Shown here: piece after piece, positions 25,874 through 45,253 of the stretch | How positions within the stretch are numbered: position 1 is the first letter of the stretch | How the letters are laid out: the number at the start of each line of letters is the position of its first letter | Made by a program: the position numbers and the translations under genes | Notes under the pieces: model-generated | Databases searched by the model: none | What the model was told of the DNA's origin: nothing | What the model saw: only the letters and a program-made list of their open reading frames with translations | Assembly: GCA_000156155.1 (NCBI GenBank) | Contig: DS995299.1 | Span: 1,231,400 to 1,295,399 of the forward strand | Length of the DNA: 64,000 nt | Direction: 5' to 3' | Origin: a beta proteobacterium KB13 | Lineage (GTDB): Bacteria; Pseudomonadota; Gammaproteobacteria; Burkholderiales; Methylophilaceae

Positions 25874-26155
<282 letters not shown>

Positions 26156-26174
26156 TTAAATTCCCTTCAAAAAA

Positions 26175-26984
<810 letters not shown>

Positions 26985-27004
26985 TTATTTTTTATACCTA
27001 TAAA

Positions 27005-27406
27005 TTAACGGTTATCTAACTTCGAAATTGCCAGGCCCGACATTAGCGCTGAGATAATCAGACCTAACATCAATCCAAAGGGTATCAAATTCGAGTAGAA
27101 TTTAAAGGAGAGCCACAACAGCAATATGATCACTCCCAATTTGACCAACTCTGCTTTCAATATATTGACTAAAACAGAGGAGGCACTTAAACCTTTTGTT
27201 TTTAATTTAGCTAAAGGGATAGAGATCACAATACCTACGATCACTGCGACAAAACCTAAAACAATTGAGAGTGCCAGTTCAATACTATATATATAGTAAC
27301 TTAGAACAAACAAAATGCTCAGCACAATAAACTGCCTGAGCAACATTTTTTTCAACTGTTTTGGGACGCCTTCAAGTTTTTCTATGAGGTTGTCTACTAA
27401 GCTCAT
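27005..27406 (-). CDS. atpI: ATP synthase assembly protein I
   Basis: 133 residues, four membrane helices (LRQFIVLSILFVLSYYIYSI; LALSIVLGFVAVIVGIVISI; LVKLGVIILLLWLSFKF; LIPFGLMLGLIISALMSGLAI). Position at the head of the atp operon plus topology identify AtpI, which helps c-ring assembly; primary sequence conservation in this family is low. Confidence 0.88.
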   Translation of the reverse strand: MSLVDNLIEKLEGVPKQLKKMLLRQFIVLSILFVLSYYIYSIELALSIVLGFVAVIVGIVISIPLAKLKTKGLSASSVLVNILKAELVKLGVIILLLWLSFKFYSNLIPFGLMLGLIISALMSGLAISKLDNR

Positions 27407-27574: not shown

Positions 27575-28630
27575 ATGAATAAATTCGCCGCTTTTGTTCG
27601 TTCGTTACCTAAAAATCCTCAATTTATTCGTTGGGCCGTGCGAATTATCTTATTAGGCATGCTGTTTTCGGTGTTAGCCTATTTTTATGCGACCCAAATA
27701 AAGACTGATGAAGTAGTAGTTGAAGAGGAAGCCTCTTTGTTGCAAGACATAGCACCAACCGAGCCTGTGAGCTTTGACTTGCTGCCTGAAAACACCTTTA
27801 CCGAGATCCCTGACCCCAGCCCAGTCAAACCAGTGAAGAAAAAACCACGACAGATCACTGAGGATGAGCGCATTGCATTATCCACTGAGGAAGAAAAAAG
27901 ACAACTGCTTAATAAACAGCTAGATGATATCGTTGAACACTCTGAACAAAAATATTCCGAACCGAAAACTAAAAAAGATCCCGTACAAAAAATTGCTGAG
28001 AAGATTAAAAAATTTGATGACCAGGGTGAGCTCTTTATCGAGGATGAAAAAAAACCATACAACGCCTTTCAAAAAGATGGATTTATTATCATGCTAGGTC
28101 TGACTGCAGAATTTAATGATTTTCAGAATAATAATGTGGTGGCCGGTGGCATAAATGTGAACAGCGATAGTGAAAATGAAGTCGAGGCAGGAATAAATTT
28201 CAACGCTGCCTATCAAAAAAATATAAGTGATAATTTCAGTGTGTTGATCGGCCTAGAATTATCTCCACACATTGGACAAAAAACATCTCTCCAGAACTCA
28301 TCAGCCACCACCGACATCGAGCGAGATTACACAGTGAGTGCTTACTTACAACCTCAGCTACAAATTTCTGAAAACTCTGCTATTTCCTTTAAAACTGGGC
28401 TATCTAGGGCCAAGGTGGACGTCAATAATCAATCCGTTGATTATGACGGATACGTGTTTGGCTTAGGTTATCGCCACCAACTCAAGAAGAATCTATTCTG
28501 GTTTGGTGAATTCAATCAATACATCTTTTCTGATGAAAATACATCGGCCATGGTAGGCGGTGGACTTCTCCAACAAGATCTGGATTTAGATTCTAGGAGC
28601 CTAAATTTAGGCCTGGGTTATCAATTTTAA
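27575..28630 (+). CDS. Membrane-anchored protein with charged linker and C-terminal beta-barrel
   Basis: 351 residues in three parts. Residues 1-22 are basic, followed by one hydrophobic helix (about 23-40, VRIILLGMLFSVLAYFYA) that could be an uncleaved anchor or a long signal peptide cut near YFYA-TQ. Residues 45-165 form an acidic then Pro/Lys-rich linker. Residues 165-351 read as alternating beta-strands of an eight-strand OmpA/OprF-like barrel with turn-rich loops, ending GLGYQF with terminal Phe, the outer-membrane assembly signal. It converges on the giant adhesin gene with 2 bp between stops and shares its higher G+C, suggesting a third partner of the secretion locus (inference). Confidence 0.72.
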   Translation: MNKFAAFVRSLPKNPQFIRWAVRIILLGMLFSVLAYFYATQIKTDEVVVEEEASLLQDIAPTEPVSFDLLPENTFTEIPDPSPVKPVKKKPRQITEDERIALSTEEEKRQLLNKQLDDIVEHSEQKYSEPKTKKDPVQKIAEKIKKFDDQGELFIEDEKKPYNAFQKDGFIIMLGLTAEFNDFQNNNVVAGGINVNSDSENEVEAGINFNAAYQKNISDNFSVLIGLELSPHIGQKTSLQNSSATTDIERDYTVSAYLQPQLQISENSAISFKTGLSRAKVDVNNQSVDYDGYVFGLGYRHQLKKNLFWFGEFNQYIFSDENTSAMVGGGLLQQDLDLDSRSLNLGLGYQF

Positions 28631-28632
28631 AG

Positions 28633-31600
28633 TTAAGCAAATCGAATCCATAGCTTCCTGATTAATTGATCGAGCATGCCTCGAATGGTGATGGTCGATT
28701 TACAATCATTGGCACCGGAAGCATCACAATCTCGTTTGTCATCTAAGATTTTGACGCCGATACCGATCATAGTTTTTTGTCTGATCTCTCTAAATTTTTC
28801 AGTCGTGTTAGACACAATATTTCGATAGGCCTGTTTGAATCGCCCAGCGATGGATCCTGCATTTTGTGCCGTACTATCTGTGGTTGTATTAGTTGGTGCC
28901 ACATAGCCGGACTGTTCAGAGGCAGCTAGCGTCTGCGCGCCGCCACTAATCGCATCACCCTGATATGTTAGGGTGCCCGACGTTCCAGTAGTGATGTTAC
29001 CCCACTCTTCAGCTGTATTTTGGCGACCTGTTTCTGCAATCCAATTCACCAGTGGATTAGTGGCTCCAACTTCGCCCGTGACATTCACCACTGGGGTGTC
29101 CGTATTAAGAGAGACTGCCTTGGTCACCAAGGTGTGTGAGGTGTTCGGATCCAAGTCATCGACCGTGCCGTTAATGATCACCTCTGGGTCCACCGATAAT
29201 AAGGTTCGGGTTAACCCGTTGGTGCCATTGTCACCAACAAACATGGCGCCATTGTAGTTCTGTCGCTCAAAGGTCATCACATCAGCCCTGAGGTTGATGG
29301 CTGCAGCGGTCACGTTAAGCTGCCACAGGTTGGTCGAGGTCAGGTTGCTGTAGGTCACGCCATTAAATGCATAACCAAATCGATCATTAATGTTGACCTC
29401 ACCCGTGCCCGCATTAATAGTCAGTGATCTAAAGTTGGCTTTGGATGCTGATCCAGCAGTGACCGTGCCGTTGAAGGTTATGTCATTATTATTTGAATTG
29501 ATCTCTAGCGGGTCTAGGTTATTGGCATCTGTTCCATTACCGCCGGCAATCACTAGATTGCCGCCAAAGACAACGTCGCCGTTCGTGTTCAGGTCAGACG
29601 TCAGATTAATTTGTCCAGCGGTGGTCAACTGATTTAATGTGACACCACTGCTCACCGAGAAGTAGCCGTCATTCGCCCTTAATGTGGCCGTTCCAAGTGC
29701 ATTACTAGCCGCAATGATCGCGGTATGCTCTTGGATATTGACGGTACCCGTCATGGTTGAAGTACCGGACAAGGTCAGGGTATCGCCCACCTGGTCCGCA
29801 TCAAAAATGATGGTACCGTCACCCGCCACGTCATTACTGAAAGTAAAATCGGTTGTTCCTGACAAGGTGAGATCCCCGTTATTTGTGATCGCACTACCGA
29901 TTTGACCGAGGACGTCGTACTGATAATTCACCGTCGATCCGTCCGGGATGATCACCGTCGCCACATTATTCTGGTCTGGGATCGCCCCATTGGCCCAGTT
30001 ACTTGCGGTGGCCCACAGCCCATCCCCAGCAGATCCCAACCAGGTCACTGAATTTAGTTGGGTAATCGTCCCGGTATTGGATGATATTGAATTATTTGAC
30101 AGGCTGTAGTTATTGGCGTCGTCTCCTGAAATTGCCATGCTGATCGATACGGTTTTTGATGTACCCACATGGCGTGAGTCAAAAGTTCCGGTTGCCGCAA
30201 AGGTGACATCATCACCGGTTTTTACTGGAGATGAGCTAATCGTTGTGGTCAACCCAGAAATATTTGCGTTTCCGTCGTATGTCTTGGTCAGGCCACCTAC
30301 CGTCACTGTGGCATTGACATCAATCTCTAAAGGTGTGATGTTGTATTCACCGCTATCCACAATGATCGAATATCCATCCGCAAGCGAGTAATTGGCATCT
30401 GCTGTGTCCACGGAATAGTTATATCCACCCACTTCATAATATCCGGCAGTAGATGTGGTCGCAGCATTAGGCACTAGAGGAGCCACCGCCACGTTTACAC
30501 CTGATTTCGTGATCGTAGCCTCTTGACCAGACATCGTCACGGTGAGGGCTCCATCGATGTCCCTGGCTGAAACCGTATGAGACTGACCGGAACCATAAGT
30601 CGGGTCTGATCCATAATATAGGGTATTAATTTGCACCAGATCAACCAAAATTGCCGTTGTCGCAGCAATCGTAAATGTTCCCGTGCCGTAATTGATAGTG
30701 TAATTATCAGAGGTCAATGCTTGGGTCAGGGATAACGTATAATCGCCCGCCGTTTCGCCCGCATTTCTTGAGATGGTGGTACTGCCCCCTAAGTCTGAAC
30801 TGGACTCACCGGAGATAAACCCATTATAGATCACACCGTTATATCCTGCCGGATCTGCCTCACCCACAAACTTGGCATCGTCCAAAGGCGCTACATTCAG
30901 TGTCGCTTTATTGATGGTTGCTGTCGTTGTTTCACCCGAAGAGATACTATAATTTGCTGCTAATCCTCCGTTAGTGCCGTCAGCTAAATTTACTGAGGTC
31001 ACCGTCACCGTCTTATCATCCCCGGCGGTGGCATTGGCAAAGGTAGCTGTGTTGGTGACGTCTAAGGTTTCACTGCCGACCAAACCCGATAAAGACAGAG
31101 TCGCGGTCGCCGATCTTGTTCCGTCATACGTTTTATCATTTGCATCGACCGTGTAGGTCAGAGCTTTTTGAGTAATGCTCGCGCTGTCCGTACCCCCCGT
31201 GGAGATTGAATAGTTGTCCGCATCGCCGGTGCCATCAGCCAGCGTAATCGAATTTACGGTCGCGGTTCGGGTTCCGACATTGGCACTATCAAAGGTAGCA
31301 ATAGCGGTTGCGGTTAATGTTTCGCCCGTCACTAGCCTATTCAAAGTTAACGTCACCGTCGCTGCATCTGTCCCGTCATAGGTTTTATTGGACGCATCTA
31401 CGGTATAACCCAAAGCCTTCTGAGTAATATCTGCCGTATCGGTTTGACCAGAACTAATTGTATAGTTACCCGCATCATCCCCGGTTAGGGTGATTGAGTT
31501 GACTGTCGCTGTCAGACCCGTGCCGACATCAGATTGACTGAAGGTCGCTCCATTAGTCGAGGATACGGAGTCACTACCGACCACACCACTCAAGGTTAAG

Positions 31601-34600
31601 GTCACCGTTGCTGTGGTGGTACCATCATAAGTTTTATCAGCAGCATCGGCTGTGGCGGTTAATGTTTTGGCGGTGATCGCAGCCGTATCGGTTTGACCCG
31701 ATGAGATCGAGTAGTTGTCTGCATCACCAGTACCATCCACAAGTGAGATGGAATCAACCGTCACTGTAATGCCAGTACCTACTGTGGTTTGTGCAAAGGT
31801 AGATGTTTCTGATGTAGTTAATGTTTCCGCACCCACTAGACCAGATAGCGTGATTGTTACCGTCGCCGCATCGGTTCCGTCATAGGTTTTATCGGAGGCG
31901 TCTACGGTGTAGGTCAGAGCTTTGGCTGTGATCGCAGCCGTATCCGTTTGGCCGGAACTAATAGTATAGTTGCCTGCATCATCCCCAGTTAGGGTAATCG
32001 AATTGACTGTCGCTGTCAGACCCGTGCCGACATCAGATTGACTGAAGGTCGCTCCATTAGTCGAGGATACGGAGTCACTACCGACCACACCACTCAAGGT
32101 TAAAGTGACCGTCGCCGTGGTGGTGCCATCATAAGTTTTATCAGCAGCATCGGCTGTGGCGGTGAGGGTTTTAGCAGTGATCGCAGCCGTATCGGTTTGA
32201 CCAGAACTAATTGTATAGTTACCTGCATCATCCCCAGTTAGGGTAATCGAATTCACTGTCGCAGTGAGACCTGTGCCGACATCAGATTGACTAAAGGTAG
32301 CCCCATTGGTGGAAGAGACCGAGTCACTACCAACCACACCACTTAAGGTTAAGGTCACCGTTGCCGTGGCTGTGCCATCGTATGTTTTATCAGCAGCATC
32401 AGCAGTTGCCGTTAATGTTTTGGCAGTGATGTCGGCGGTGGTTCCGGAAGGTAACGTCGAAGAATAATTACTTGCGTCATCACCAGTCAATGATAATCCA
32501 GATAATGTTACGCTAATATTTGTTCCCACATCAGATTGTGCAAATGTTGCCGTTACACCCGATGTATCTATACTCACAGAGTCTCCATCCACTAACCCTG
32601 TGAAGCTTGCACTGTCCGTATTTACAGTAGCTGTTGTCGTACCATCGTATGTTTTATCATCTGCAGTGATCCCGGATACTGTTAAGCTTTTTGCTGTGAT
32701 ATTCGCTGTGGTTGTGCCTTGGGTGGTGATGGAGTAATTACCTTCATCAGCACCGCCTGTGGTTTCAGATAAGGTCACTGTTTTTCCAGTGCCCACATTT
32801 TCATCTGAGAAGGTACCGGTGGCTGTCACGGTGACGGTGTCACCTGAGACTAAACCAGTAAAGACGGCACTGCTGTAATCAATGGTGGCCGTGTTATCAC
32901 CATCGTAAGTTTTGTTACTGGCCGTAATGCCTGAGATGGTTAGAGCCTTCTGAGTAATATCTGCCGTATCGGTTTGACCAGAACTAATTGTATAGTTACC
33001 CGCATCATCCCCGGTTAGGGTGATTGAGTTGACTGTCGCTGTCAGACCCGTGCCGACATCAGATTGACTGAAGGTCGCTCCATTAGTCGAGGATACGGAG
33101 TCACTACCGACCACACCACTCAAGGTTAAGGTCACCGTTGCTGTGGTGGTACCATCATAAGTTTTATCAGCAGCATCGGCTGTGGCGGTTAATGTTTTGG
33201 CGGTGATCGCAGCCGTATCGGTTTGACCCGATGAGATCGAGTAGTTGTCTGCATCACCAGTACCATCCACAAGTGAGATGGAATCAACCGTCACTGTAAT
33301 GCCAGTACCTACTGTGGTTTGTGCAAAGGTAGATGTTTCTGATGTAGTTAATGTTTCCGCACCCACTAGACCAGATAGCGTGATTGTTACCGTCGCCGCA
33401 TCGGTTCCGTCATAGGTTTTATCGGAGGCGTCTACGGTGTAGGTCAGAGCTTTGGCTGTGATCGCAGCCGTATCCGTTTGGCCGGAACTAATAGTATAGT
33501 TGCCTGCATCATCCCCAGTTAGGGTAATCGAATTGACTGTCGCTGTCAGACCCGTGCCGACATCAGATTGACTGAAGGTCGCTCCATTAGTCGAGGATAC
33601 GGAGTCACTACCGACCACACCACTCAAGGTTAAAGTGACCGTCGCCGTGGTGGTGCCATCATAAGTTTTATCAGCAGCATCGGCTGTGGCGGTGAGGGTT
33701 TTAGCAGTGATCGCAGCCGTATCGGTTTGACCAGAACTAATTGTATAGTTACCTGCATCATCCCCAGTTAGGGTAATCGAATTCACTGTCGCAGTGAGAC
33801 CTGTGCCGACATCAGATTGACTAAAGGTAGCCCCATTGGTGGAAGAGACCGAGTCACTACCAACCACACCACTTAAGGTTAAGGTCACCGTTGCCGTGGC
33901 TGTGCCATCGTATGTTTTATCAGCAGCATCAGCAGTTGCCGTTAATGTTTTGGCAGTGATGTCGGCGGTGGTGGAACCTTGAGCTGTTACCGAATAATTG
34001 TTGATATCAGTCCCACCCATAGTTTCAGATAGTGTCACTGTTTTTCCTGTCCCGACATTGGCATCCGAGAAGGTACCGGTTGCTGTAACCGATACTACAT
34101 CACTCGCCACTAAGCCAGCAAAAGCTGCACTAGAAGTATCGATGGTCGCTGTATTATCACCATCATAAGTTTTATTTGCTGCTGTGATACCAGAGACAGT
34201 TAAAGCTTTCTGATTCACTGTAATCGATCCTGTCTCACTTGTAGCTAAGGTATAACCTGATCTTATTGTCCCACCGGCGACTGAGATTCCCAAGGTATAT
34301 GACCCGGCCTCTAAATTTCCGGATGTACTGTTTGACGCACTATTCGCAGAAACGGTTAACGTTGGATTGCTTGAGTATGCTGTCTCAAGCGTTATCTGAG
34401 AGCCACTCGATGTCGTGTCATACACATTTGCCAGACCAGCGACACCTGATGTTGTAATTTCATAGTTGTCAGATAGGTCGTAACTGCCAGCATAGGTTAT
34501 GGTTTCACTGGTTGTGGTAAAGGTTACTGTCTGACTAGATGTTTCTGCAAACACATAACGATTGCCGCTCGGGACTGATGAAGGCGCTAATGTGCTATAG

Positions 34601-37600
34601 GTTGCTCCCCACAAAGGTGTATTATTACTATTCAAATAACCATTTGTTGAATCTCCAAAATTTGAATTTTCATCGTCGGCGGCATAGACAATCCATCGGC
34701 CAGTTCCTGATGTAACCAACGCATTTGATGCTGAAGAATATGCAATCGTATAATCTCCTGTCGCAGATATTATGATGTCTTCATTACTCCCGGCTGTAAT
34801 ACTTGATCCATAGGTTTGACTTACATCAATACCAAATATATTAATTGATCCGTTCGCTGTAATTGAATTAGTAGAAACATTTCCTGATGAGGCAGTTAAT
34901 GAATAATCAGCCAGGGCGGATGACCCTCCAATGGCAGCGGACTGTGTCCAGTTCCCAGCGGCGGTGATTGTTAAATCATAGGCACCGTTCATTGTTCCGC
35001 TAACAGTTTGATTTCCTGCAGCCGATGTCATTGTTGTGTTGGATAAAAGCACTATCGCGCCCGAGTAAGTGTTATTTCCAGATAAGAAATACACGGCGCC
35101 GTTACTTGATACACCTGATCCATTGACGTACATATTTTCAGCTACGGTGATTCCCCCTGAAATTTGCAATGTCGCTCCATCTGATACTGTGGTTTTTCCA
35201 GAAGTTGTTCCCAACGCGCTGGCGTTTGATATAGCTAAGATACCGGTGCTGATAGTGACTGTTCCGTTAAAGGTGTTCGTTCCTGACAGGGTTAATGTAC
35301 CCGAACCAGATTTTGTAAGAGAACCTGAGCCTGATATTACCCCGGATAATGTCTGGTTTGAATCAGTCGCAATACTCAGAGTGCCTGCATTGGTTATGAG
35401 GCCGTCATAGGTGCCTGATTCTAGCTGGCCTGTGACAGATAATGTTCCGCCAGTGATATGAATATCATTGGTGAATGTATTTACGGCCGATAAGGTGAGT
35501 GTGCCTGATCCGCTCTTACGAACGGTACCGATGCCTGAAATAATTCCGCCAATTTCAAAACTCGCATCAGAGGCCACCGCCAGATTACCTGCATTTGAGA
35601 CGGCCCCGATATCTCCGGTGTTAGTAAATTCGACCGTGTCTTTATAAAAGGTTCTCCAGTATGCACTGCCTGAACCAGATTGGTCTACATCATTTTCATG
35701 CAGATTTGTTGCTCCGGTATAGGTCAGATTGCCGCTAAAAGAAATTTTCACGTTTAGGTCAATTGAACGCACGCCATAACCTGCAGTGCTATTGCTGGTC
35801 GAAATTTGTGTGCTTGTTCCAGAAGGAGAAGTTAATACGTCACCTTCATCCAAGCGATGATAATTTGAAGAGGGTGTATTAAACCACTGCCTTGTAGTGG
35901 AGGAAGCTTCAACATTAGTACCATTTTGACGTAAAAGGATATTTACCTGTTTTGTGTAATTACTGCCACTGTTCCATCGAAACCACATGCTTGCTGTTTC
36001 GTTGTCCGCATCATAAGTTTTTTCATAGACACCGGCACCCGATGTAGTTTGTACGCCATCTAAAATACTGGTTCCATGCACCTGACCACCAGAGATACGG
36101 TTGAGGATATCGAGCACAGTGGCATTGGTTGCGATTACCTCATAAGTACTCAATAGTGAATCAGATGAGCCCCAGTCAATTAGTTCTTCGAGTCGATAAA
36201 TAATATTGACTGTACCCGTTCCTGAAATATCCGAGGCAATAGTTGCAGATGTTGTTCGATCAATAGATAAGTTTGCATTATTTATAATGCTTGAATTATC
36301 AATGGAGCCAGTCGTCGTATAGTTTCCTAATTTTAATGTTCCACTTGATATTGTTGTATTGCCACTGTAAGTGTTCGTTGCATACAACATTACAATGTTG
36401 TCCCCTTGTTGAGTTAACGTGCCCGTTCCTGAAATGACCCCCGTTAATCTTTGGTTCACGGTATCTTGGGATAGGACTAGTGCGCCGCTATTTGTAATTG
36501 CTTGTGAGAAAGTGACATAAGAATCTGTTGAAGACTCACCCAGGGTGTGGATGGTGCCGGATATCTCTAACGTTCCTGCATTGATTGCAATAGTTGAACT
36601 AATCTCATTGGTGCCGGACAGCAAGAGTGTGCCTAAACCAGTTTTAGAAAAACCAGTCGCGAGACCAGTGCCACTCCAAGTGCTATCATCACCATCAATT
36701 AAGGGAGCTGACACCGTGAGTGTCGCCCCGTCTGATACTGAAAAACTCACCCCATTGCCGCCCTGGCCGTTAAAGATTTCTGCAGAGCCGCTGATGGTTG
36801 AATCAGCTGTGGCTGTGACAGTATCAGACAGGGTCCAAGCAACGGAAGGTGAAAGTGCGTTGGTCGTAATACCTCCTGTAGAGGTCAGAGTACCGCCGCT
36901 CAGTGTCAGATTTCCTAATCTATTAAAGTAGTTACCCCCGTTGGTCATGGTCCCGCCCGACTGTATCTCAACCGTGGATAAAATTTGTGTCTGGTTGTTG
37001 GCAAAGATGTCATGACCTCCCGCACTGAAAGTCGCCCCATTGGCGATGACCAGAGCAAAGTTCGAGTTATTGACTAACCCGAATTGAGTCGCCGTCACCG
37101 ACACCGTCCCGGCATCGACATTTAATCCGTGGGTGAAGGTGTTATTGGCGGACATGACCAGGGTTCCTGCCCCAGATTTTGTAACACTGTAACCACCTGA
37201 AACTATTCCGCTTAAAGTCAAAGTCGTGCCAGATGCGACATCAATGGTCGTGTTAGCACCAAGCGCTATGTTTTGGTTGAAGCTGGAGTCACCTCCGGTG
37301 TTTGAATAATTACCACTGGAGTTGAGTGTTAATGATCTGTTGTGTGTGACCCCCGCAAAATTAATGGTCGCACCAGACGATACGTTCACTGTCGAGCCTG
37401 AACCTAATCCACCGTTGGTCCCGACACTCCAGGTTCCGGCCTCAATGTTGAGCGTACCATCAAAATAAGCACCAGCGCCCGCAACTAATTGACTGACTGT
37501 ACCGGTACCTCTCTTGTAGATAGTTCCTGCATTGTTTGATCCATTCGGGGCAATTCTTGATATTTCAAAGTCATTCGATGAATCGAAAATGAGGGTGACC

Positions 37601-40600
37601 CCTGTGTCTACCTCCATCCAGTCATTACATTCCGACCCGCAATTAATGGCACCAGTGAATGTTGCCGAAAAATTTCCAAATAGGTCATCGAATGACAATC
37701 GACTGAATGTATGGCTGCTGCTTGTAAACGTGACATTATTCGATCCGTAGACATAAATTGTTTCATTTCCCTGGATACTCATGGCGGTGGTCTGGTCTGA
37801 TCCAGTTCTGAATACAAAATATGTTGTATCGTTGGCTGTGTAGACCCCTGAGTAATTGGTCCAGTTTGCGTCAAAAGAAAATGAGTATGATGTCGCGTTT
37901 GCGGTAATACTGCCCGCACCGCTAATTGATATAAAATTTGGATCTGAACCGAACCAGATTCCGGCATAGGGGTCACCATCTTGGCTGGTCTTGTTCTGAT
38001 CTAAGTTAATGTTTAACGTTGCGCCAGAAGCGACCGTGATGTCACCCGTGTAGGTGTGTCTGATGCCTGCGCCAGAGTTATAACTTGTTCCTGAGTGCCC
38101 AATCGCCTCCGTCATTTGAAATTCGCCGGCATTGATGACCAGGTCGCCGTTAAATCGATTGGCCGTTGATGTCGGTGGCGAGAAAATGAACGTCCCTGCA
38201 CCATTTTTGGTGATGCCATAATTATTACCAGCGTCACCAAAATTTGCATTATTCGTAAAGGTTGTGCCCGAGGCGACGTCGAGAATACTATTGGCCTGAA
38301 GCACCACTTCGCCGTCGTTGGTAATCGACGCCGTCGTGCTTGTTCCCGATAATGTTCCGCCATTGAGGATAATGGTCCCCTTGCCGCTGTAAGCAAACCC
38401 CTGAATCTCGAATGTTCCGCCCGTGTTCACCACCACATCTTCATCGCCAAAGGCGTTGGCTGTGGCAATTAAGGTTCCTGCGTTAATAGTGCTTGAACTT
38501 GTCATCGTGCTTGTACTGTTGATGGTGAAGCTACCGACACCATTTTTTACAATAGATCCGGCAGAAATTGTAGAGCCGCTATCGATATCTCCGCTCGAGC
38601 TATTGTTGATGGTTAACGTTCCACCTAACAAGCTAATTGAATTATCGATATCGATGGTCGCGCCATTAAGTATAAGGTTTAAGCTAACACCATCACCAGA
38701 AATACTTTCATTAATATCAATTGTTCCGCCGGTTAACGTTAATGTAGCTCCACCTGCTCCTTTATACTGAATCGCATAGTCTACAGTTAAGGTATTTGCG
38801 GTGGCGCTGCCTGTCGTGATTGATACATCCGTACCTGAATTAAGTGAGCCTTCGATGGAACTAGCATTTAGAACGGTGGTCTGGGTGGGATCAAAGGTAG
38901 CAGAGTATGAGTCTCCACTGGCGGTGTTTGATATTGTCACATCGAACGGGTCGATCAGCCACATACCTCCACGTCCTACGTTAATTGTCGCTAAAATGTT
39001 GACAACGTGCCCAGAAGTTTCAACAAAACCACCGTTTGTGTTGTTAAAGTTCCTAGCGTCGACTATGGTATTTTTAGATATGTAGAGGTATTTACTGAAT
39101 GGGATGCGTTGGTTGTCTTGATCGTAGCCTAGATATATTTCACCGCCCTGTGACGTGCCTTTGGTTTCAATGTGTGAAGATATGATTCGAGTGTGTTCAC
39201 GGCCAGAGATGAGTATTGTGCCGCCACGGCCGTTCGAGGCGTTGGTTTGAATTCGCGTGGAGTCCATATTTAGTGGGCCGTCACGTACCTGAATTTTTAT
39301 AGTGCCGCCAGCATCAAAGCCATTGGACTCGATCCAAGCCTGATTCATGTCGACGGTTTTTTCTATATCGAGCGTGATCGTTCCGCCACGGCCTGTTCCG
39401 CCATTGGACTGAATAAATCCATCCACATCTAAATGCCTTGCATTGATCAGGATCCTTCCACCTTCATCACCATTCGCTAAGACTCTTGACTCAGGTCTCA
39501 AATTAATCTGATTCAGGGCAGTCATCACAATCCGTCCCAGTCTCGTCTGATTGGAAGTCTGGATAAGACCCGCCATTGCCATATTTGCGCCAATGAAGTT
39601 GGCTAGCGGATTGGTATTCTCATTACCCGTGGCAGTTATACTCCCTAATACATCGAGCTGATCTCCTGAACGGAAACTCACCTGATTGGCTGTAATGTCT
39701 GCAACTGTACCCAATGACAATCCGTTAAAACCGGTAGCTTCTAGTATGAGGTTCTGATGTTCATCACTGATTGTGCCTTGTAACGATAAATAGTCAGAGG
39801 CCGTCAACTCAAGTTGCGTTAATGTTGTGCTGCGACTGTTTAAGGTAATGTCATCGCCTATCATTAAATCACCAACCTGATCGCTGGAGCAGTTGGTCAC
39901 GCACAAGTCAGCGTTGACTGTCTCCGATACGTTTGCATTTAGTAACGCGAGCTCAATGACGGAGGCATGCGTCTGAGTCCAGACAGATGCTGCTGAGACG
40001 ATACGCCAGTTGCCTTGGTTGCTATTTTGAGCGACGATCTCAGCATTTTCGAGTATTTTAATGTTATTTTCCTGAATAATCGGTGCATTTTCACCGGATT
40101 TAGCAGAAATTTGTGCATTATCTTCTAAAATTACCTGCTCGCCCTGGGTTAATATCTCACCACCCACTCCTTCGTCAGCGCCGTCAGCTTTGATCACTCC
40201 GTCTATTGTGACTTCGTTTTCTGCGACCAGCTCAATACCGCCACCATCACCGTTCAATGTGGCCGATGCCTCTATGCGAGCATCTTCTTCAATCGTGATG
40301 TCGTTGGCCGCGACTTCAATTTCACCGCCTTGTGTGTCGGCATTGGCCAGCGTCTGTGATCCACCGTCAAACACCACCTCGTTACTGGTGAGATAAATTC
40401 TACCGCCCTCATTCACGGCTACCGTTTCTGTTGAACCGACATTAATGCTGCCCGCTTGATTGATCAGGCCACCATTGATTTGATTCATTGCCGTAGCTGA
40501 TAAGATCACTTTTCCGCCAGCCGCCTCAATGGCTAACTTATTCTCGATGAGGCTATTCAGTAAACTAGGTGTGGTGATCACATCTGTGATCTGGCCGTCA

Positions 40601-41253
40601 TTAAAGCTTAAAATAATTTCTCTTCCTGAAGCCAGGACCACCTCGCCCATGTTTGCCGTGATCAGTCCTTCATTCCGAACCTCCGGAGCCAGCATCGCCA
40701 CATAGGCCTCATTCGCTATGACCGTTCCATGGTTCTCTATGGATCCTGATTGATCCGTTTCACGTAAGATGATGCGGTCAGGATTGTCTAAGTATTCCTG
40801 ATTGTTAATTTCTTGAGTTGTCGCGACGATACCGCCGGTCTCAACCCGACCGTTCTCTGAAATGTAGACGCCTGACGAATTGACCAGGAGCACCTGACCA
40901 TTGGCATTGATGTTGCCGTAAATTTGCGAGGCATTATCTGTCACCACACGGTTCAATGTTGACGCACTCGAGTCTGGCTGGTTGAAATTCACAGTGGCAT
41001 CACTGCCCACGTTAAAGGTCTGCCAATCGATGATGCCCTGTTGGCTATCCTGGTCAATGTTCATGACATTGTCATTGGAATTGATCGTGATGTCCCCGGA
41101 AACAATATCTGCACCTTGCGGTAACTCATTCGAACTGATGTCTGCGAGTGTGTTAAGGGAAAATAGTGATAAAGCTAATAGGCGTGTGAGGTTCTTACCA
41201 AAGATTTGGTGTATAGAATGCTGTACAGATTGTTTGTTCTCTTTTCTTAGCAT
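28633..41253 (-). CDS. Giant two-partner-secretion adhesin (TpsA; haemagglutinin N-domain, YDG repeats)
   Basis: 4206 residues. An extended signal peptide (about 1-37, ending LNTLA) leads into the TPS domain (38-300) with DWQTFNVGSDATVNFNQ and VNSSGVYIS, the secretion signal read by TpsB. Residues about 800-2250 are glycine/serine-rich beta-strand repeats of the autotransporter-associated type (SGSGTLTLSGTNTF). From about 2360 to 3380 come thirteen YDG-type units with KTYDG, and one more near 3660. The tail (about 4150-4206) is basic, with Cys4176 and Cys4184 eight apart. Likely a surface fibre for attachment. The transporter gene lies 16 bp upstream. An identical 1029-bp repeat lies inside. 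Confidence 0.93.
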   Translation of the reverse strand: MLRKENKQSVQHSIHQIFGKNLTRLLALSLFSLNTLADISSNELPQGADIVSGDITINSNDNVMNIDQDSQQGIIDWQTFNVGSDATVNFNQPDSSASTLNRVVTDNASQIYGNINANGQVLLVNSSGVYISENGRVETGGIVATTQEINNQEYLDNPDRIILRETDQSGSIENHGTVIANEAYVAMLAPEVRNEGLITANMGEVVLASGREIILSFNDGQITDVITTPSLLNSLIENKLAIEAAGGKVILSATAMNQINGGLINQAGSINVGSTETVAVNEGGRIYLTSNEVVFDGGSQTLANADTQGGEIEVAANDITIEEDARIEASATLNGDGGGIELVAENEVTIDGVIKADGADEGVGGEILTQGEQVILEDNAQISAKSGENAPIIQENNIKILENAEIVAQNSNQGNWRIVSAASVWTQTHASVIELALLNANVSETVNADLCVTNCSSDQVGDLMIGDDITLNSRSTTLTQLELTASDYLSLQGTISDEHQNLILEATGFNGLSLGTVADITANQVSFRSGDQLDVLGSITATGNENTNPLANFIGANMAMAGLIQTSNQTRLGRIVMTALNQINLRPESRVLANGDEGGRILINARHLDVDGFIQSNGGTGRGGTITLDIEKTVDMNQAWIESNGFDAGGTIKIQVRDGPLNMDSTRIQTNASNGRGGTILISGREHTRIISSHIETKGTSQGGEIYLGYDQDNQRIPFSKYLYISKNTIVDARNFNNTNGGFVETSGHVVNILATINVGRGGMWLIDPFDVTISNTASGDSYSATFDPTQTTVLNASSIEGSLNSGTDVSITTGSATANTLTVDYAIQYKGAGGATLTLTGGTIDINESISGDGVSLNLILNGATIDIDNSISLLGGTLTINNSSSGDIDSGSTISAGSIVKNGVGSFTINSTSTMTSSSTINAGTLIATANAFGDEDVVVNTGGTFEIQGFAYSGKGTIILNGGTLSGTSTTASITNDGEVVLQANSILDVASGTTFTNNANFGDAGNNYGITKNGAGTFIFSPPTSTANRFNGDLVINAGEFQMTEAIGHSGTSYNSGAGIRHTYTGDITVASGATLNINLDQNKTSQDGDPYAGIWFGSDPNFISISGAGSITANATSYSFSFDANWTNYSGVYTANDTTYFVFRTGSDQTTAMSIQGNETIYVYGSNNVTFTSSSHTFSRLSFDDLFGNFSATFTGAINCGSECNDWMEVDTGVTLIFDSSNDFEISRIAPNGSNNAGTIYKRGTGTVSQLVAGAGAYFDGTLNIEAGTWSVGTNGGLGSGSTVNVSSGATINFAGVTHNRSLTLNSSGNYSNTGGDSSFNQNIALGANTTIDVASGTTLTLSGIVSGGYSVTKSGAGTLVMSANNTFTHGLNVDAGTVSVTATQFGLVNNSNFALVIANGATFSAGGHDIFANNQTQILSTVEIQSGGTMTNGGNYFNRLGNLTLSGGTLTSTGGITTNALSPSVAWTLSDTVTATADSTISGSAEIFNGQGGNGVSFSVSDGATLTVSAPLIDGDDSTWSGTGLATGFSKTGLGTLLLSGTNEISSTIAINAGTLEISGTIHTLGESSTDSYVTFSQAITNSGALVLSQDTVNQRLTGVISGTGTLTQQGDNIVMLYATNTYSGNTTISSGTLKLGNYTTTGSIDNSSIINNANLSIDRTTSATIASDISGTGTVNIIYRLEELIDWGSSDSLLSTYEVIATNATVLDILNRISGGQVHGTSILDGVQTTSGAGVYEKTYDADNETASMWFRWNSGSNYTKQVNILLRQNGTNVEASSTTRQWFNTPSSNYHRLDEGDVLTSPSGTSTQISTSNSTAGYGVRSIDLNVKISFSGNLTYTGATNLHENDVDQSGSGSAYWRTFYKDTVEFTNTGDIGAVSNAGNLAVASDASFEIGGIISGIGTVRKSGSGTLTLSAVNTFTNDIHITGGTLSVTGQLESGTYDGLITNAGTLSIATDSNQTLSGVISGSGSLTKSGSGTLTLSGTNTFNGTVTISTGILAISNASALGTTSGKTTVSDGATLQISGGITVAENMYVNGSGVSSNGAVYFLSGNNTYSGAIVLLSNTTMTSAAGNQTVSGTMNGAYDLTITAAGNWTQSAAIGGSSALADYSLTASSGNVSTNSITANGSINIFGIDVSQTYGSSITAGSNEDIIISATGDYTIAYSSASNALVTSGTGRWIVYAADDENSNFGDSTNGYLNSNNTPLWGATYSTLAPSSVPSGNRYVFAETSSQTVTFTTTSETITYAGSYDLSDNYEITTSGVAGLANVYDTTSSGSQITLETAYSSNPTLTVSANSASNSTSGNLEAGSYTLGISVAGGTIRSGYTLATSETGSITVNQKALTVSGITAANKTYDGDNTATIDTSSAAFAGLVASDVVSVTATGTFSDANVGTGKTVTLSETMGGTDINNYSVTAQGSTTADITAKTLTATADAADKTYDGTATATVTLTLSGVVGSDSVSSTNGATFSQSDVGTGLTATVNSITLTGDDAGNYTISSGQTDTAAITAKTLTATADAADKTYDGTTTATVTLTLSGVVGSDSVSSTNGATFSQSDVGTGLTATVNSITLTGDDAGNYTISSGQTDTAAITAKALTYTVDASDKTYDGTDAATVTITLSGLVGAETLTTSETSTFAQTTVGTGITVTVDSISLVDGTGDADNYSISSGQTDTAAITAKTLTATADAADKTYDGTTTATVTLTLSGVVGSDSVSSTNGATFSQSDVGTGLTATVNSITLTGDDAGNYTISSGQTDTADITQKALTISGITASNKTYDGDNTATIDYSSAVFTGLVSGDTVTVTATGTFSDENVGTGKTVTLSETTGGADEGNYSITTQGTTTANITAKSLTVSGITADDKTYDGTTTATVNTDSASFTGLVDGDSVSIDTSGVTATFAQSDVGTNISVTLSGLSLTGDDASNYSSTLPSGTTADITAKTLTATADAADKTYDGTATATVTLTLSGVVGSDSVSSTNGATFSQSDVGTGLTATVNSITLTGDDAGNYTISSGQTDTAAITAKTLTATADAADKTYDGTTTATVTLTLSGVVGSDSVSSTNGATFSQSDVGTGLTATVNSITLTGDDAGNYTISSGQTDTAAITAKALTYTVDASDKTYDGTDAATVTITLSGLVGAETLTTSETSTFAQTTVGTGITVTVDSISLVDGTGDADNYSISSGQTDTAAITAKTLTATADAADKTYDGTTTATVTLTLSGVVGSDSVSSTNGATFSQSDVGTGLTATVNSITLTGDDAGNYTISSGQTDTADITQKALGYTVDASNKTYDGTDAATVTLTLNRLVTGETLTATAIATFDSANVGTRTATVNSITLADGTGDADNYSISTGGTDSASITQKALTYTVDANDKTYDGTRSATATLSLSGLVGSETLDVTNTATFANATAGDDKTVTVTSVNLADGTNGGLAANYSISSGETTTATINKATLNVAPLDDAKFVGEADPAGYNGVIYNGFISGESSSDLGGSTTISRNAGETAGDYTLSLTQALTSDNYTINYGTGTFTIAATTAILVDLVQINTLYYGSDPTYGSGQSHTVSARDIDGALTVTMSGQEATITKSGVNVAVAPLVPNAATTSTAGYYEVGGYNYSVDTADANYSLADGYSIIVDSGEYNITPLEIDVNATVTVGGLTKTYDGNANISGLTTTISSSPVKTGDDVTFAATGTFDSRHVGTSKTVSISMAISGDDANNYSLSNNSISSNTGTITQLNSVTWLGSAGDGLWATASNWANGAIPDQNNVATVIIPDGSTVNYQYDVLGQIGSAITNNGDLTLSGTTDFTFSNDVAGDGTIIFDADQVGDTLTLSGTSTMTGTVNIQEHTAIIAASNALGTATLRANDGYFSVSSGVTLNQLTTAGQINLTSDLNTNGDVVFGGNLVIAGGNGTDANNLDPLEINSNNNDITFNGTVTAGSASKANFRSLTINAGTGEVNINDRFGYAFNGVTYSNLTSTNLWQLNVTAAAINLRADVMTFERQNYNGAMFVGDNGTNGLTRTLLSVDPEVIINGTVDDLDPNTSHTLVTKAVSLNTDTPVVNVTGEVGATNPLVNWIAETGRQNTAEEWGNITTGTSGTLTYQGDAISGGAQTLAASEQSGYVAPTNTTTDSTAQNAGSIAGRFKQAYRNIVSNTTEKFREIRQKTMIGIGVKILDDKRDCDASGANDCKSTITIRGMLDQLIRKLWIRFA
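31414..32442 (-). repeat. Direct repeat in adhesin gene, copy nearer the C-terminus
   Basis: About 1029 bp (343 codons, four YDG units) matching 32944-33972 at a constant offset of 1530 bp. I compared it line by line and saw no difference. Both ends break sharply into different sequence. Confidence 0.92.
32944..33972 (-). repeat. Direct repeat in adhesin gene, copy nearer the N-terminus
   Basis: Second copy of the 31414-32442 block. The two are separated by 501 bp (167 codons) that encode two other YDG units. Offset and lengths are multiples of three, so recombination between copies would keep the frame. Confidence 0.92.
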
Positions 41254-41269
41254 TTCTAACGGTGTTCAT

Positions 41270-42943
41270 TTAAAACAACACGGCCCCCCTGAGCCATACA
41301 AAGTTATCCTTATTGCTGCCGTCCTGGTCTTTGCCAGTGACTGTGGGGTTTGGATTTTTACCCACACGACGAGCTAGGTTTAGTGATATTACACTATTTT
41401 TTGGTCCTGTCCAGTCTATTCCAACACCAAAACCCTTTAAAGTCAATGAGTTAGGATCGGTATTGACACTCGAATTATCAATATATTGTTTTATTGAGCC
41501 CATGTCATAGAACATCTTGCCCTGTAGGTTATTTTGAAAATTTCTGGTGAGTTCGAGATTTGCTAAAAATCCTTGGGCCCCGGCACCCTCATTGACCGGA
41601 TAGGCCCGTACCCCATTTGGTCCGCCGAGGTACAATTTTTCCGATGAATCTAGGTTTTGATCGGCCCACTGGTAGGCGTATTTTATTCTTAATGCATAAT
41701 CACTATTCAGGTATTGTGTCCGGTTAAGATTAAATCGTATCTTGTTAAAATCACCTTGCGTATTTGCCCCGATTTTATCACTCGCTTCATTGGGTGACCC
41801 GCTAAGATTAACTTCGCCTTTTGTATAGGTGGCGCTCAGCTCGGTGATGGCGCCATAAAAGAGCAGGGTATCCACAAAATTTGATTCTACTCCTAGGTCA
41901 ATGGCATCGGTGTCATAGTCTGAGGTCGTGCCTGCGGTGGTCTCATTGAAGAATGATTTATTCTCATACTCTGCTTTGAGGTATGTTTTCGCATTCTGAG
42001 ATAAGTATACCGGGTACCTTGTATTGATGGCATAGGCGGTCGACCTTCCCTCTGGCTTGGTTGTATCAAATTCATCTAGGATCACTTCATAATCGAGCGA
42101 ACTAAATTTAAAACCTACCCGTAAACCATCAAAACCGATTGGCATCTCATAGTTGACCATGCCAAAATTAACGCCTTCTGACTTGAGGGCCGTCAGGCTC
42201 AATTGATCTCCTCTTGATAATGGGTTATTCATGACAAAGGTGGCCAAGCCCCTGTGGGCTCCTGTGGATCGTGACCCATAGTTGTCATAGCTCACGCTGG
42301 AGACAAATCTCTTTTCATATTTTGTTTGGATGATGACCCCAGTTTTTTTTGGCACACTGCCTGGCCTGAGTGATGCCTTAGCAGATATGCCTGGTAATTC
42401 GTTGATCAAGAAAATTTGGTCATCGATCTCTTTCAGGCTGAGCGTCTTGCTCTTAGTTTTGAAGAATTTTTTCAACGTCTCGGCATTGATGTAATTTTTT
42501 TCCTGCAACGCAATTTCAATGTCCTCCAACTCGGCCTCAACCACCTGCATCGTGACAACCCCTTCAGTTATGTCTTGGTCTGGCAAGATGACCTGTGCCA
42601 CATAGCCCTGCTGACGATAGTAATTCGCTAACTCCGCATTGAGAGAACGGATGGTGCTAATGGGTAATTGTTTTTTACGGTAGTCTTTTAAGAACTGGTC
42701 TAGAGTAAATCGGTCCAGTGATTCATTGCCTATGATACGAAACCCTTGAATATAGACTTTGGGCTCGTCAGGGTCTATAACTTCCTCCTCGGTCTCAGGC
42801 TCTACCTCGAATTCCATCATGTCAATTTCCGGGAGGGTCTGTTCTATCTCATTGAGAATTTGTCCAGCGTCAGGGGAAACACCGCCGGCCCTTGCGATTA
42901 TGCAAGTGAAAAAGAGGATTATGAAGGTAAAGCTATATCTCAT
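41270..42943 (-). CDS. Two-partner-secretion outer-membrane transporter (TpsB, ShlB/FhaC/HecB family)
   Basis: 557 residues. Signal peptide MRYSFTFIILFFTCIIARA, an acidic linker, then two POTRA domains (about 64-140 with VYIQGFRIIGNESL, and 140-205), then a 16-strand barrel to the terminal Phe (GAVLF). The strand-6 loop motif VRGY/F appears as LGGPNGVRAYP, with Ala for Gly, which is common. It exports the giant adhesin, encoded directly downstream. It starts 35 bp after parB on the same strand, with little room for its own promoter. Confidence 0.95.
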   Translation of the reverse strand: MRYSFTFIILFFTCIIARAGGVSPDAGQILNEIEQTLPEIDMMEFEVEPETEEEVIDPDEPKVYIQGFRIIGNESLDRFTLDQFLKDYRKKQLPISTIRSLNAELANYYRQQGYVAQVILPDQDITEGVVTMQVVEAELEDIEIALQEKNYINAETLKKFFKTKSKTLSLKEIDDQIFLINELPGISAKASLRPGSVPKKTGVIIQTKYEKRFVSSVSYDNYGSRSTGAHRGLATFVMNNPLSRGDQLSLTALKSEGVNFGMVNYEMPIGFDGLRVGFKFSSLDYEVILDEFDTTKPEGRSTAYAINTRYPVYLSQNAKTYLKAEYENKSFFNETTAGTTSDYDTDAIDLGVESNFVDTLLFYGAITELSATYTKGEVNLSGSPNEASDKIGANTQGDFNKIRFNLNRTQYLNSDYALRIKYAYQWADQNLDSSEKLYLGGPNGVRAYPVNEGAGAQGFLANLELTRNFQNNLQGKMFYDMGSIKQYIDNSSVNTDPNSLTLKGFGVGIDWTGPKNSVISLNLARRVGKNPNPTVTGKDQDGSNKDNFVWLRGAVLF

Positions 42944-42978: not shown

Positions 42979-43854
42979 TTATTTTTTTAATTTTTCAATC
43001 AAAACATCCAGCTGGTCTAGGTTGCGATAGCTGATCCGAATCTCTCCCGAATTATTTTTTTTGTTATTGATCTTCACCGAAAAACCGAGCTGGTCTGATA
43101 ATTCATTTTCTATGGCCTGAACATCGGCATCTTTGGTCTGCTCTTTTTTTCTGCTACTCGGTTTTGCAAATGCCGATCGATCCTCACCATTGACCAAGAC
43201 CTCTACTTCTCTTACCGATAAAGATTCCCTGGCAATCTTTTCACACAACATGATCTGTCGATCAGGATTTAAAGGGAGCAAGGCTCTGGCATGGCCCATC
43301 TCAATCTTTTTCTCAGCCAAAGCTTTTCTCACGTGCGGGGTCAGGTTTAATAATCTCAACAGATTTGATACCGTTACCCGCGATTTTCCAAGAGCATCGG
43401 CCGCCTGCTCGTGTGTCATTTCAAATTCATCAATCATGCGACGAATTCCGTTCGCCTCTTCTAGGGCAGATAAATCCTCACGCTGAATGTTTTCAATCAA
43501 CGCCATAGCTAATGCACTTCGATCCGATATCTCCCTGACAATAACTGGAACTTCTTTAATTTTAGCTATTTGTGCCGCACGCCACCTTCTCTCGCCTGCA
43601 ATGATTTCATAGCCGTCATCCAACTGTCGGGCAATGATCGGCTGCATCAGACCTTGCTCGGCAATCGATTCAGCCAATTCATTAAGGGCATCCTCATTCA
43701 TAACAGAACGTGGCTGGTAGCGTCCCGGTATTAATTGGTCAATGTCTACCTGTTGTATACTTTCACCAACCACAGGTTCTAGTGATGATTTTTCCTCCAC
43801 CTCAGATCCGAACAGGGCGCTTAACCCTCGACCCAAACCTTTTTCTTTAGCCAT
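42979..43854 (-). CDS. parB: Chromosome partitioning protein ParB
   Basis: 291 residues from ATG 43854, with a GAGGAG ribosome binding site; the TTG at 43869 is rejected. Starts MAKEKGLGRGLSALFG as usual. CTP/parS clamp motif GERRWRAAQIAKI, then a helix-turn-helix (THEQAADALGKSRVTVSNLLRLL) and a C-terminal dimer domain. Overlaps the parA end by 8 bp. Two parS sites lie about 3.3 kb away at 47194-47250. Confidence 0.97.
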   Translation of the reverse strand: MAKEKGLGRGLSALFGSEVEEKSSLEPVVGESIQQVDIDQLIPGRYQPRSVMNEDALNELAESIAEQGLMQPIIARQLDDGYEIIAGERRWRAAQIAKIKEVPVIVREISDRSALAMALIENIQREDLSALEEANGIRRMIDEFEMTHEQAADALGKSRVTVSNLLRLLNLTPHVRKALAEKKIEMGHARALLPLNPDRQIMLCEKIARESLSVREVEVLVNGEDRSAFAKPSSRKKEQTKDADVQAIENELSDQLGFSVKINNKKNNSGEIRISYRNLDQLDVLIEKLKK

Positions 43855-44617
43855 TTCTTCGCTCCTCAATATGAATTATTTCTCTGGCTAGGTCGATGTA
43901 TGCCTTAGCCCCTTTAGATGATTTATCGTGTTCAATTGCAGACTTCCCAAAACTAGGTGCTTCTGCTACACGGATATTTCTTGGAATGATGGTCTTGTAG
44001 ACCTTGTTGGGAAAGTAAGAAGATAGCTGGTCAGAGACTTCTTTACTTAAGGTGTTTCGTGAGTCATATATTGTTCTTAACAGCCCTTCTATCTCAATGT
44101 CCGGATTCATTTTTTGTTTGACGCGCTTTATGGTATTCACAAGATCAGTGAGTCCCTCGAGTGCAAAGTATTCACATTGCATTGGGATGATCACGGATTT
44201 GGCTGCGGTCAATGCATTCAAGGTTAAAAGACCCAAGGAGGGTGGGCAGTCCAACAGAATAAAGTCATAGCTTTTTTGTAATTGTTGTAACTGGTTTTTG
44301 AGGGCATTAACTCGCTGCTCCTTGCTCACCAGTTCTAACTCTGCTGCGGCTAGATGTTGATTGGCTGGGATGATGTCATGATGTTTGCTCGCATGGATCA
44401 CGGTGTTGATGTCTGCCTCTCCCATGATGACTTCATAGATCGTCGCCTCGACTTCATTCTTCTCCACTCCAGATCCGGTGGTGGCATTGCCCTGCGGGTC
44501 AAGGTCGACAAGCAATACCTTCTTGCCCTCCATGCCTAGTCCCGTGGCTAGATTCAGCGTGGTGGTGGTTTTACCGACTCCGCCTTTTTGATTTGATACT
44601 GCAATAATTTTCGTCAT
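43847..44617 (-). CDS. parA: Chromosome partitioning ATPase ParA
   Basis: 256 residues, Soj-type. Deviant Walker A (QKGGVGKTTTTLNLA) at the N-terminus, LVDLDPQGNATTG and LLDCPPSLGLLTLNAL as the switch and Walker B motifs. Drives origin segregation with ParB. Lies 18 bp after rsmG in the usual order. Confidence 0.97.
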   Translation of the reverse strand: MTKIIAVSNQKGGVGKTTTTLNLATGLGMEGKKVLLVDLDPQGNATTGSGVEKNEVEATIYEVIMGEADINTVIHASKHHDIIPANQHLAAAELELVSKEQRVNALKNQLQQLQKSYDFILLDCPPSLGLLTLNALTAAKSVIIPMQCEYFALEGLTDLVNTIKRVKQKMNPDIEIEGLLRTIYDSRNTLSKEVSDQLSSYFPNKVYKTIIPRNIRVAEAPSFGKSAIEHDKSSKGAKAYIDLAREIIHIEERRNG

Positions 44618-44635: not shown

Positions 44636-45253
44636 TTACTTATATATTTTTACTAAACTTCTATTGCCATCATAAAATGGAATTTTTAATGGCGCCACGG
44701 CCAATTTGTTTTGATCTAAACTTTCCAATTCCATTTCATACCCGGGACCCTTCATGGCAAAAAATTGACCCGTTGTTTTTAATAAATGCTGGGTTAGATC
44801 CATCATCTTTTTTATATCAGCAAATGCTCGGCTGATGACAATATCAACCGGGGTATCTAAACGTAGATTTTCTACCTTTTCATGATAGGTATTTACGTTT
44901 GTCAGGCCTAACTTTCCCTTCAAATCATCTAAAAAAGAAATCTTTTTAGCCACCCCGTCCACTAAATGAAAAGTGATACCAGGATTGAAGATTGCCAGTA
45001 CCATTCCTGGAAAACCGGCCCCTGTTCCGACATCAAGGACTTGCTGTGTACCCTGAATCTCATGATTCACACTCAAAGAATCCATAAAATGTTTCGTTAT
45101 TACATCCTTCTCATCCGTTATCGATGTTAAATTAAACACCTTATTCCACTTAAGTAACTGATTTTTATAGGTTTCTAATAAATTGACCTGCTCATCTATA
45201 AAATCAATCTTTAGCTCGTTTAGCCCACTCTGTATCTGTAACTTCAAGTCCAA
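44636..45253 (-). CDS. rsmG: 16S rRNA (guanine-527-N7) methyltransferase
   Basis: 205 residues (GidB). SAM-binding LDVGTGAGFPGMVLAIF and the downstream ISRAFADIKKMMDL typical of RsmG. The start directly follows the mnmG stop, the standard mnmG-rsmG pairing. Confidence 0.97.
   Translation of the reverse strand: MDLKLQIQSGLNELKIDFIDEQVNLLETYKNQLLKWNKVFNLTSITDEKDVITKHFMDSLSVNHEIQGTQQVLDVGTGAGFPGMVLAIFNPGITFHLVDGVAKKISFLDDLKGKLGLTNVNTYHEKVENLRLDTPVDIVISRAFADIKKMMDLTQHLLKTTGQFFAMKGPGYEMELESLDQNKLAVAPLKIPFYDGNRSLVKIYK

Follow-up and report, generated by a model that had tools for sequence, protein, structure and literature searches.

The DNA analysed here is a 64,000-nucleotide window of the genome of the beta proteobacterium KB13 (G000, a single contig of 1.33 Mb; G000:C1:1231400-1295399), a member of the Methylophilaceae. 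Between atpI and parB the window carries a two-partner secretion (TPS) locus encoding a transporter, TpsB, and a giant adhesin, TpsA, together with a gene on the opposite strand for a 351-residue protein that ends in a predicted outer-membrane (OM) barrel. These genes lie within a longer foreign tract that includes the partition genes. The explanation we favour, which we rate as evenly balanced against all others taken together, is that the adhesin module was imported with the partition genes and that the barrel protein would form a tether from the inner to the outer membrane, associated with the TPS but not strictly tied to it. Comparisons were made with 31 genomes of the genus, 187 of the family and 399 of the order; these sets overlap. 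Other G numbers are labels of related genomes, and L numbers denote loci extracted from them.

The block comprises the barrel gene (27575-28630, forward strand), tpsA (28633-41253, reverse strand) and tpsB (41270-42943, reverse strand). The coordinates of the three open reading frames are those of an earlier reading of the sequence alone, which had correctly described a TpsB, a TpsA of 4206 residues and a third gene ending 2 bp away on the other strand. The stop of the barrel gene at 28630 and the end of tpsA at 28633 face each other across these 2 bp, and tpsA is separated from tpsB by 16 bp. On either side the proteins match AtpI (PF03899, E = 4.3e-6), AtpB (NF004477) and ParB (TIGR00180). 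Promoter-like sites near the barrel gene number four against 4.2 expected by chance, and those near the parB-tpsB junction four against 0.7.

The junction occupied by the block is normally closed. In each of the 22 congeners that could be assessed, the gap between parB and atpB is 491-548 bp and has atpI inside it, in agreement with the assumption of the sequence-only reading that parB and atpI are usual neighbours. Seven further genomes were not assessable, and the gap of the sister genome G001 was taken separately from locus L002. Because all 22 congeners have atpI alone at this position, the presence of the TPS and barrel genes there is the derived state. The gap count and the trees described below used 24 of the 27 genus genomes with a ParB match (G010, G011 and G029, with cut or partial matches, were omitted); the other four of the 31 have no ParB match.

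The foreign character extends well beyond the block. The tract is 20-23 kb in length, running from atpI through mnmG and perhaps to yidC, and it reaches at least 47.2 kb. Flanking genes mostly encode proteins with 84-100% identity to those of G003 and G006, whereas the values for atpI, parB, parA, rsmG and mnmG are 50-74%; the first genes of the window fall outside the stretches compared, and two flanking genes, at 50431 and 62477, are exceptions at 69-78%. The imported allele of atpI (27005-27406, reverse strand) is 55-66% identical to those of G003, G006 and G008, while the adjoining atpB is 93-99% identical. Protein identity and GC content at third codon positions (GC3) likewise mark as imported the alleles of parB (42979-43869), parA (43847-44617), rsmG (44636-45253) and mnmG (45254-47158), all on the reverse strand. 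For atpI, parB, parA, rsmG and mnmG the identities between G000 and G003 are 55, 60, 70, 50 and 74%, and those between G003 and G008 are 77, 67, 85, 56 and 80%. For 12 other genes drawn from both sides G000 is closer to G003 than G003 is to G008, so that the order of relatedness is inverted in the five tract genes. GC3 of eight tract genes is 0.37-0.49, compared with a mean of 0.271 (standard deviation 0.04) for 28 flanking genes (Mann-Whitney p = 1.3e-7; the comparison omits four genes at the edges), and the orthologues of parB, parA, rsmG and mnmG in G003, G006 and G008 lie at 0.20-0.28.

The phylogenies of the two sides of the junction conflict. In the AtpB tree (24 genomes) G000 and G001 group with G003 (support 87/90, unstarred). 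In the tree of parA, parB and atpI combined (24 genomes) they fall outside G003, G006, G012, G008 and G007 with support of 100/99, and forcing them to join G003, G006 and G012 costs 56.6 log-likelihood units (approximately unbiased test, p = 6.3e-6). A divergent tract with foreign GC3 and low identity, set between conserved homologous flanks and having a conflicting tree, argues for replacement rather than simple insertion. By these comparisons the tract is foreign, with its left edge in or near atpB and atpI. The sequence-only reading had proposed that the block was inserted at a core junction; it is indeed foreign at a normally closed site, but it came inside a larger replacement and not as a lone insertion. 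No tRNA gene is present in the 64-kb window, and thus none marks an edge of the tract as in an integrase- or tRNA-borne island. G001 has the same tract, with 92-98% protein identity. The MnmG proteins nearest to that of G000, after the one of G001, belong to six genomes of its own clade (71-75%), and no other match listed exceeds 68%, so that the donor is an unsampled lineage.

Two parS-like sites lie on the forward strand at 47194-47250, between mnmG and trmE, one with a single mismatch (47194-47209) and one exact (47235-47250), judged against what we take to be the parS consensus. The partition genes and their sites are thus placed in the tract or at its edge. A parS-like pair is also found beside mnmG in the loci of G001, G003, G006, G007 and G012, and as relatives have like sites the imported ParB probably recognises the site that theirs do.

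Replacement flexible genomic islands have been described in the Methylophilaceae and ascribed to homologous recombination (PMC10872708), and the KB13 tract resembles these islands in its inferred mode of exchange and in its family. It differs in place and cargo, since fGI-1 is situated between tRNA genes with polysaccharide genes as its content, and the KB13 tract comprises the par/oriC region and an adhesin. The available text contains no match for parB, adhesin, hemagglutinin or two-partner, although a 'thermostable hemolysin cluster' is mentioned there for some strains (PMC10872708). The set of papers searched contained none on an OM43 hemagglutinin or on two-partner secretion in the Methylophilaceae, and a word search for adhesin and hemagglutinin in the available text of PMC8262872, PMC6794327 and PMC12421898 gave no match.

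By their domains TpsA and TpsB are a two-partner secretion pair of known kind. TpsB (557 residues) has POTRA and ShlB-type barrel regions, matching PF08479 (POTRA_2, E = 3.2e-14) and PF03865 (E = 8.6e-27), as is usual for a type Vb transporter. TpsA, encoded next to it, has the TPS N-domain (TIGR01901, E = 3.5e-18) followed by 14 YDG, nine MBG_2 and seven PATR repeat stretches. In the YDG-repeat region lies a tandem array of ten copies of a 249-bp unit (31433-33960, reverse strand). There are only six cysteines in the 4206 residues. They form three close pairs, the last of which (residues 4176 and 4184; 28702-28728, reverse strand) is a candidate hook within TpsB. Such a pair is present in six of the ten TpsA C-termini examined (G000, G006 and G015, with G127, G128 and G108 judged by eye), and absent from those of G008, G013, G123 and G183.

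One close likeness is to CdrA/CdrB. CdrA is a 220 kDa TPS adhesin of Pseudomonas aeruginosa with MBG2 repeats and a C-terminal cysteine hook (PMC7616799). As far as the available part of that source goes, the two systems share the TPS pair, the MBG_2 repeats and a cysteine pair near the C-terminus of TpsA; the KB13 TpsA is much longer, and KB13 has in addition the convergent third gene. In HMW1 and HxuA a disulfide-looped C-terminal anchor locks the TpsA protein in its TpsB (PMC5422565), and by analogy the KB13 pair would be expected to do likewise. No hxuC-like receptor gene adjoins the KB13 locus, in contrast to HxuA. TpsA is therefore probably to be seen, in the light of these systems, as exported by TpsB and held in it by the terminal cysteine pair as a long surface fibre.

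Scanning the genome contigs with the TpsA C-terminus found two loci, one of them in G006. There tpsA (L049:5120-19853) is split into two overlapping frames, and the end of tpsA in G008 (L051:16092-19886) reads by eye like an out-of-frame repeat. Decay of adhesin genes may be common.

The third protein has three parts, as the sequence-only reading had proposed: a hydrophobic segment, a linker and an OM-type barrel. There is one hydrophobic segment, whose best 19-residue window starts at residue 21 (mean Kyte-Doolittle hydropathy 1.96). The linker (residues 40-165, ~126 residues) has a net charge of -10 and contains 11 prolines. Residues 190-351 match PF13505 (OMP_b-brl, E = 1.7e-8), and the chain ends in GxxYxF, conforming to what we take to be the C-terminal aromatic signal of OM proteins; the two features together are those of a small OM barrel. 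Eight candidate strands were counted by eye. Two matches in a sequence search of the PDB (E = 0.62 and 0.78) were taken as chance.

The complete architecture is confined to G000 and G001, that is to two of the 187 family genomes, and the same two of the 399 of the order. Eight partial matches occur in the family. Five were opened; by eye three of these (two in G015 and one in G126) are barrels that lack such a linker and whose signal peptides look ordinary, and two, which cover only the N-terminal half, resemble TolA, judging from their neighbours as well. The order-level search added five further partial matches, those opened all coming from the family set. A scan of the genome contigs with two peptide patterns of the barrel gave 264 matches, not one of which was confirmed, a weak negative. 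As far as sampled, the protein thus joins an inner-membrane-type stalk to an OM barrel in a combination specific to this lineage.

On its length the protein could possibly span the periplasm. The precedent is the elongated MlaD of Veillonella parvula, in which an inner-membrane helix and an OM barrel are joined in one chain (PMC10665443, in the part available); the order of transmembrane (TM) segment, helical or linker region and OM barrel is alike. The KB13 protein differs in matching no MCE domain, and its neighbours are atpI and tpsA rather than mla genes. No report of a single-chain bridge from inner to outer membrane serving a TPS was found in the literature searched.

The sequence-only reading had also considered that the barrel protein might energise the fibre, and this role is disfavoured. 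There is no TonB family match at E up to 1 and no TonB_C domain. The pattern [ST]...H, which we take to be the motif of the TonB TM helix, is absent from the membrane segment. It is found in TonB of G015, G108 and G123 and in the TolA-like protein of G075; the test is imperfect, having missed the TolA-like protein of G186. Two TonB_C proteins and two MotA/ExbB proteins are encoded elsewhere in G000.

The sister genome provides a natural deletion. G001 lacks tpsBA through a 14,126-bp deletion between two copies of an 8-bp direct repeat, located at 28679-28686 and 42805-42812 in the KB13 window, which has fused tpsB, at about codon 44, with the 3' end of tpsA. The tpsB remnant has lost its start codon and has a 2-bp insertion. 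Neither the N-terminus nor the C-terminus of TpsA finds a match in G001, and the TpsB query finds the remnant only. The barrel reading frame is intact, with 92% identity and a ratio of nonsynonymous to synonymous substitution rates (Ka/Ks) of 0.125 for the whole gene and 0.067 for its barrel portion. Had the barrel been a strict companion of the pair, as the sequence-only reading suggested checking, it would always occur with it; it does not, G001 being the only other carrier found and having the barrel without the TPS. Equally, with two carriers in the family, the barrel is not widespread among relatives that lack the TPS.

The events may be put together as follows. Comparison of the genomes suggests that in the common ancestor of G000 and G001 homologous recombination replaced the origin-proximal atpI-parB-parA-rsmG-mnmG segment, perhaps as far as yidC and with the parS sites in between, by that of the unsampled relative. 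The barrel gene and tpsBA arrived in the same tract. TpsB would export the giant TpsA, and the cysteine pair would probably anchor the fibre as in CdrA and HMW1, judging from the families. The barrel product would most likely be an OM barrel on a long periplasmic stalk whose N-terminal hydrophobic segment is retained in the inner membrane, giving a covalent tether; this step has less behind it than the others. G001 later deleted tpsBA and kept the barrel gene. A functional partnership of the barrel with the TPS is unproven.

Several observations weigh against this explanation. The barrel fold is assigned from PF13505 and the strand count from the reading by eye, which a hydrophobicity scan supports only roughly. 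The hydrophobic segment could possibly be a signal peptide cleavable after VLA (residue 35). The tpsB remnant of G001 has five substitutions in 126 sites after the start codon, compared with 8.5% in the barrel gene; as it is less diverged per site, the deletion looks recent, and the intact barrel frame consequently says little about independent function. We do not claim that selection has kept the barrel in G001. The donor is unsampled. On its right side the tract has no sharp limit, since trmE (mnmE) and yidC (47251-50212, reverse strand), where it may end, have raised GC3 and protein identities that are not out of line. GC3 is raised in AtpI of G003 as well (0.40), and is 0.34-0.39 in atpB of G000, G001, G003 and G006. 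Lastly G019 moves too, from the G000-G003 clade in the AtpB tree to G026, on a long branch, in the tree of parA, parB and atpI, so that recombination or misbehaviour of this region is not confined to G000 and G001; G019 may have undergone a further replacement there, or this is a long-branch effect.

An alternative that we consider unlikely, yet the best placed of the rivals, is that the barrel protein serves this TPS specifically as its third partner, which would hold, gate or clear TpsB and TpsA from the periplasmic side in the place taken elsewhere by TonB or OmpA proteins. It is suggested by the convergence of the genes within 2 bp and their arrival in one tract, and above all by the neighbours of other TPS loci. 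TpsB matches (E 1e-20) occur in 56 of the 187 family genomes, at 67 places. Neighbours were scanned by phmmer with TonB, ExbB, ExbD, OmpA-type, barrel and other queries, which other proteins would escape, in 43 stretches, many of them cut by contig ends. These stretches cover 39 of the 67 TpsB places, along with three pieces from the ends of TpsA and the deletion scar of G001. In two streamlined genera a membrane-anchored, periplasm-reaching protein adjoins six of the seven TPS loci with both sides visible: TonB-ExbB-ExbD in G015, TonB in G108, G109 and G123, a TM-OmpA protein in G006 and the barrel in G000, with none in G008. The TonB genes are directly beside tpsA, at L054:13262-15082 (G015, followed by ExbB and ExbD), L075:12398-13078 (G108), L129/L130 (G109, identified by phmmer alone) and L076:6585-7334 (G123). 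The TM-OmpA protein of G006 (L050:1953-3803, 616 residues) is encoded directly upstream of tpsB on the same strand; it matches Arm-DNA-bind_3 (E = 1.5e-21) and OmpA (E = 1.2e-7), with a hydrophobic segment near residue 462, and from these domains it could possibly link DNA to the cell wall. In P. aeruginosa the TPS genes PA0690/PA0692 have exbB2, exbD2 and a tonB homologue as neighbours (the PUMA3-linked system; PMC2729926). This is likewise a TPS beside a trans-periplasmic protein, and it resembles G015; the third protein of KB13 differs in being a barrel that lacks the TonB features.

Several results oppose a dedicated partner. G001 has the barrel without the TPS, which weakens such a role and, the deletion being recent, does not refute it. 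The barrel gene is on the opposite strand and shares no operon with tpsBA, and none of the 38 other TpsB places scanned has a barrel match. The grouping into two genera was chosen after the data were seen, with G013 (tpsA running off the end of a 9.5-kb contig) and G114 excluded, and as G108, G109 and G123 belong to one genus the independent cases number about four. The other scanned pieces have no such neighbour next door by the queries used. TonB genes ~3 kb from tpsA in g42 (G086, G088, G089, G093, G095, G102 and G103) were not counted as partners because Mur-ligase, thiamine-synthase and pyrimidine-kinase genes intervene in the one locus opened (G095). Also excluded from the count are a TonB match in G091, at 13 kb from tpsB, and one in G128, at 5 kb.

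The same six of seven loci are the principal support for a broader idea, which we regard as doubtful and against which G001 is the main result. The giant TPS adhesins of streamlined Methylophilaceae might in general work with a third partner that spans the periplasm and has been drawn more than once from families unrelated to each other (TonB with or without ExbBD, TM-OmpA, TM-linker-barrel). Their type Vb system would then have three parts and a connection to the inner membrane or the cell wall, and the KB13 barrel would be a single-chain bridge. If the barrel or its TonB and OmpA counterparts do serve the TPS, type Vb secretion would not always be two-partner.

It is rather improbable that the barrel is instead an ordinary OM protein whose signal peptide has a long n-region and whose periplasmic tail is free, carried in the tract as a passenger unrelated to the TPS. 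Its barrel domain does match the signal-peptide-bearing barrels of G015 and G126, the VLA sequence offers a possible -3/-1 site, and the gene is retained without the TPS in G001. However, by eye a good cleavage site is not evident, the hydrophobic run extends past VLA with no polar c-region before the acidic linker, and the signal peptides of the three relatives' barrels look ordinary and are followed by no comparable linker.

The imported origin of the tract has two weaker competitors. It is very unlikely that nothing was imported and that these genes diverged faster and rose in GC where they stood. In favour of this, no donor is known and, after G001, MnmG still falls closest to the same clade, but GC3 is about doubled in parA and parB compared with their orthologues, the difference for dnaA, dnaN and gyrB being 0.08 or less, and only a set of consecutive genes is divergent, with conserved ones on either side. 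Strongly disfavoured is the view that the locus stood at parB-atpI in the ancestor and that the other genomes have lost it: TPS loci are patchy across the family, so losses do occur, but comparison of the junctions, as the sequence-only reading had advised, gave the short gap in every assessed congener, the tract is foreign in composition and phylogeny, and the TPS loci of G006, G008 and G015 lie near birA/glnS instead.

The TPS pair itself is of a known kind, and the architecture of the barrel protein is a variant that deserves testing. A 12.6-kb adhesin and a swapped partition region in a 1.33-Mb genome would show that core origin-proximal genes are exchanged by homologous recombination in streamlined plankton, and such exchange would carry costly surface genes as cargo. 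G000 and G001 form a natural pair with and without the adhesin.

The position near birA/glnS applies to those loci of the three congeners (L049-L054) that have core flanks in view, the gene names being what we take them to be from sequence, and that neighbourhood is possibly a TPS hot spot distinct from parB-atpI. Beside two TpsA C-termini there are convergent genes for secreted-looking proteins of 157-160 residues (L071:4086-4568 in G127 and L073:3753-4226 in G128). They have no Pfam match and contain residues that we presume to be HNH-like. Within the KB13 window two genes at 16314-17258 (Monooxy_af470-like and DUF2141) are present in G001 and not found in the compared stretches of G003 and G006. 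Finally, synonymous divergence (Ks) between G000 and G001 is 0.05-0.09 in atpI and atpB, far below that of parB and the barrel gene (0.23-0.31), and the DNA identity of G000 and G003 in the atp region (22000-27400) is 94-98% in places; there has possibly been further recent exchange within the atp operon.

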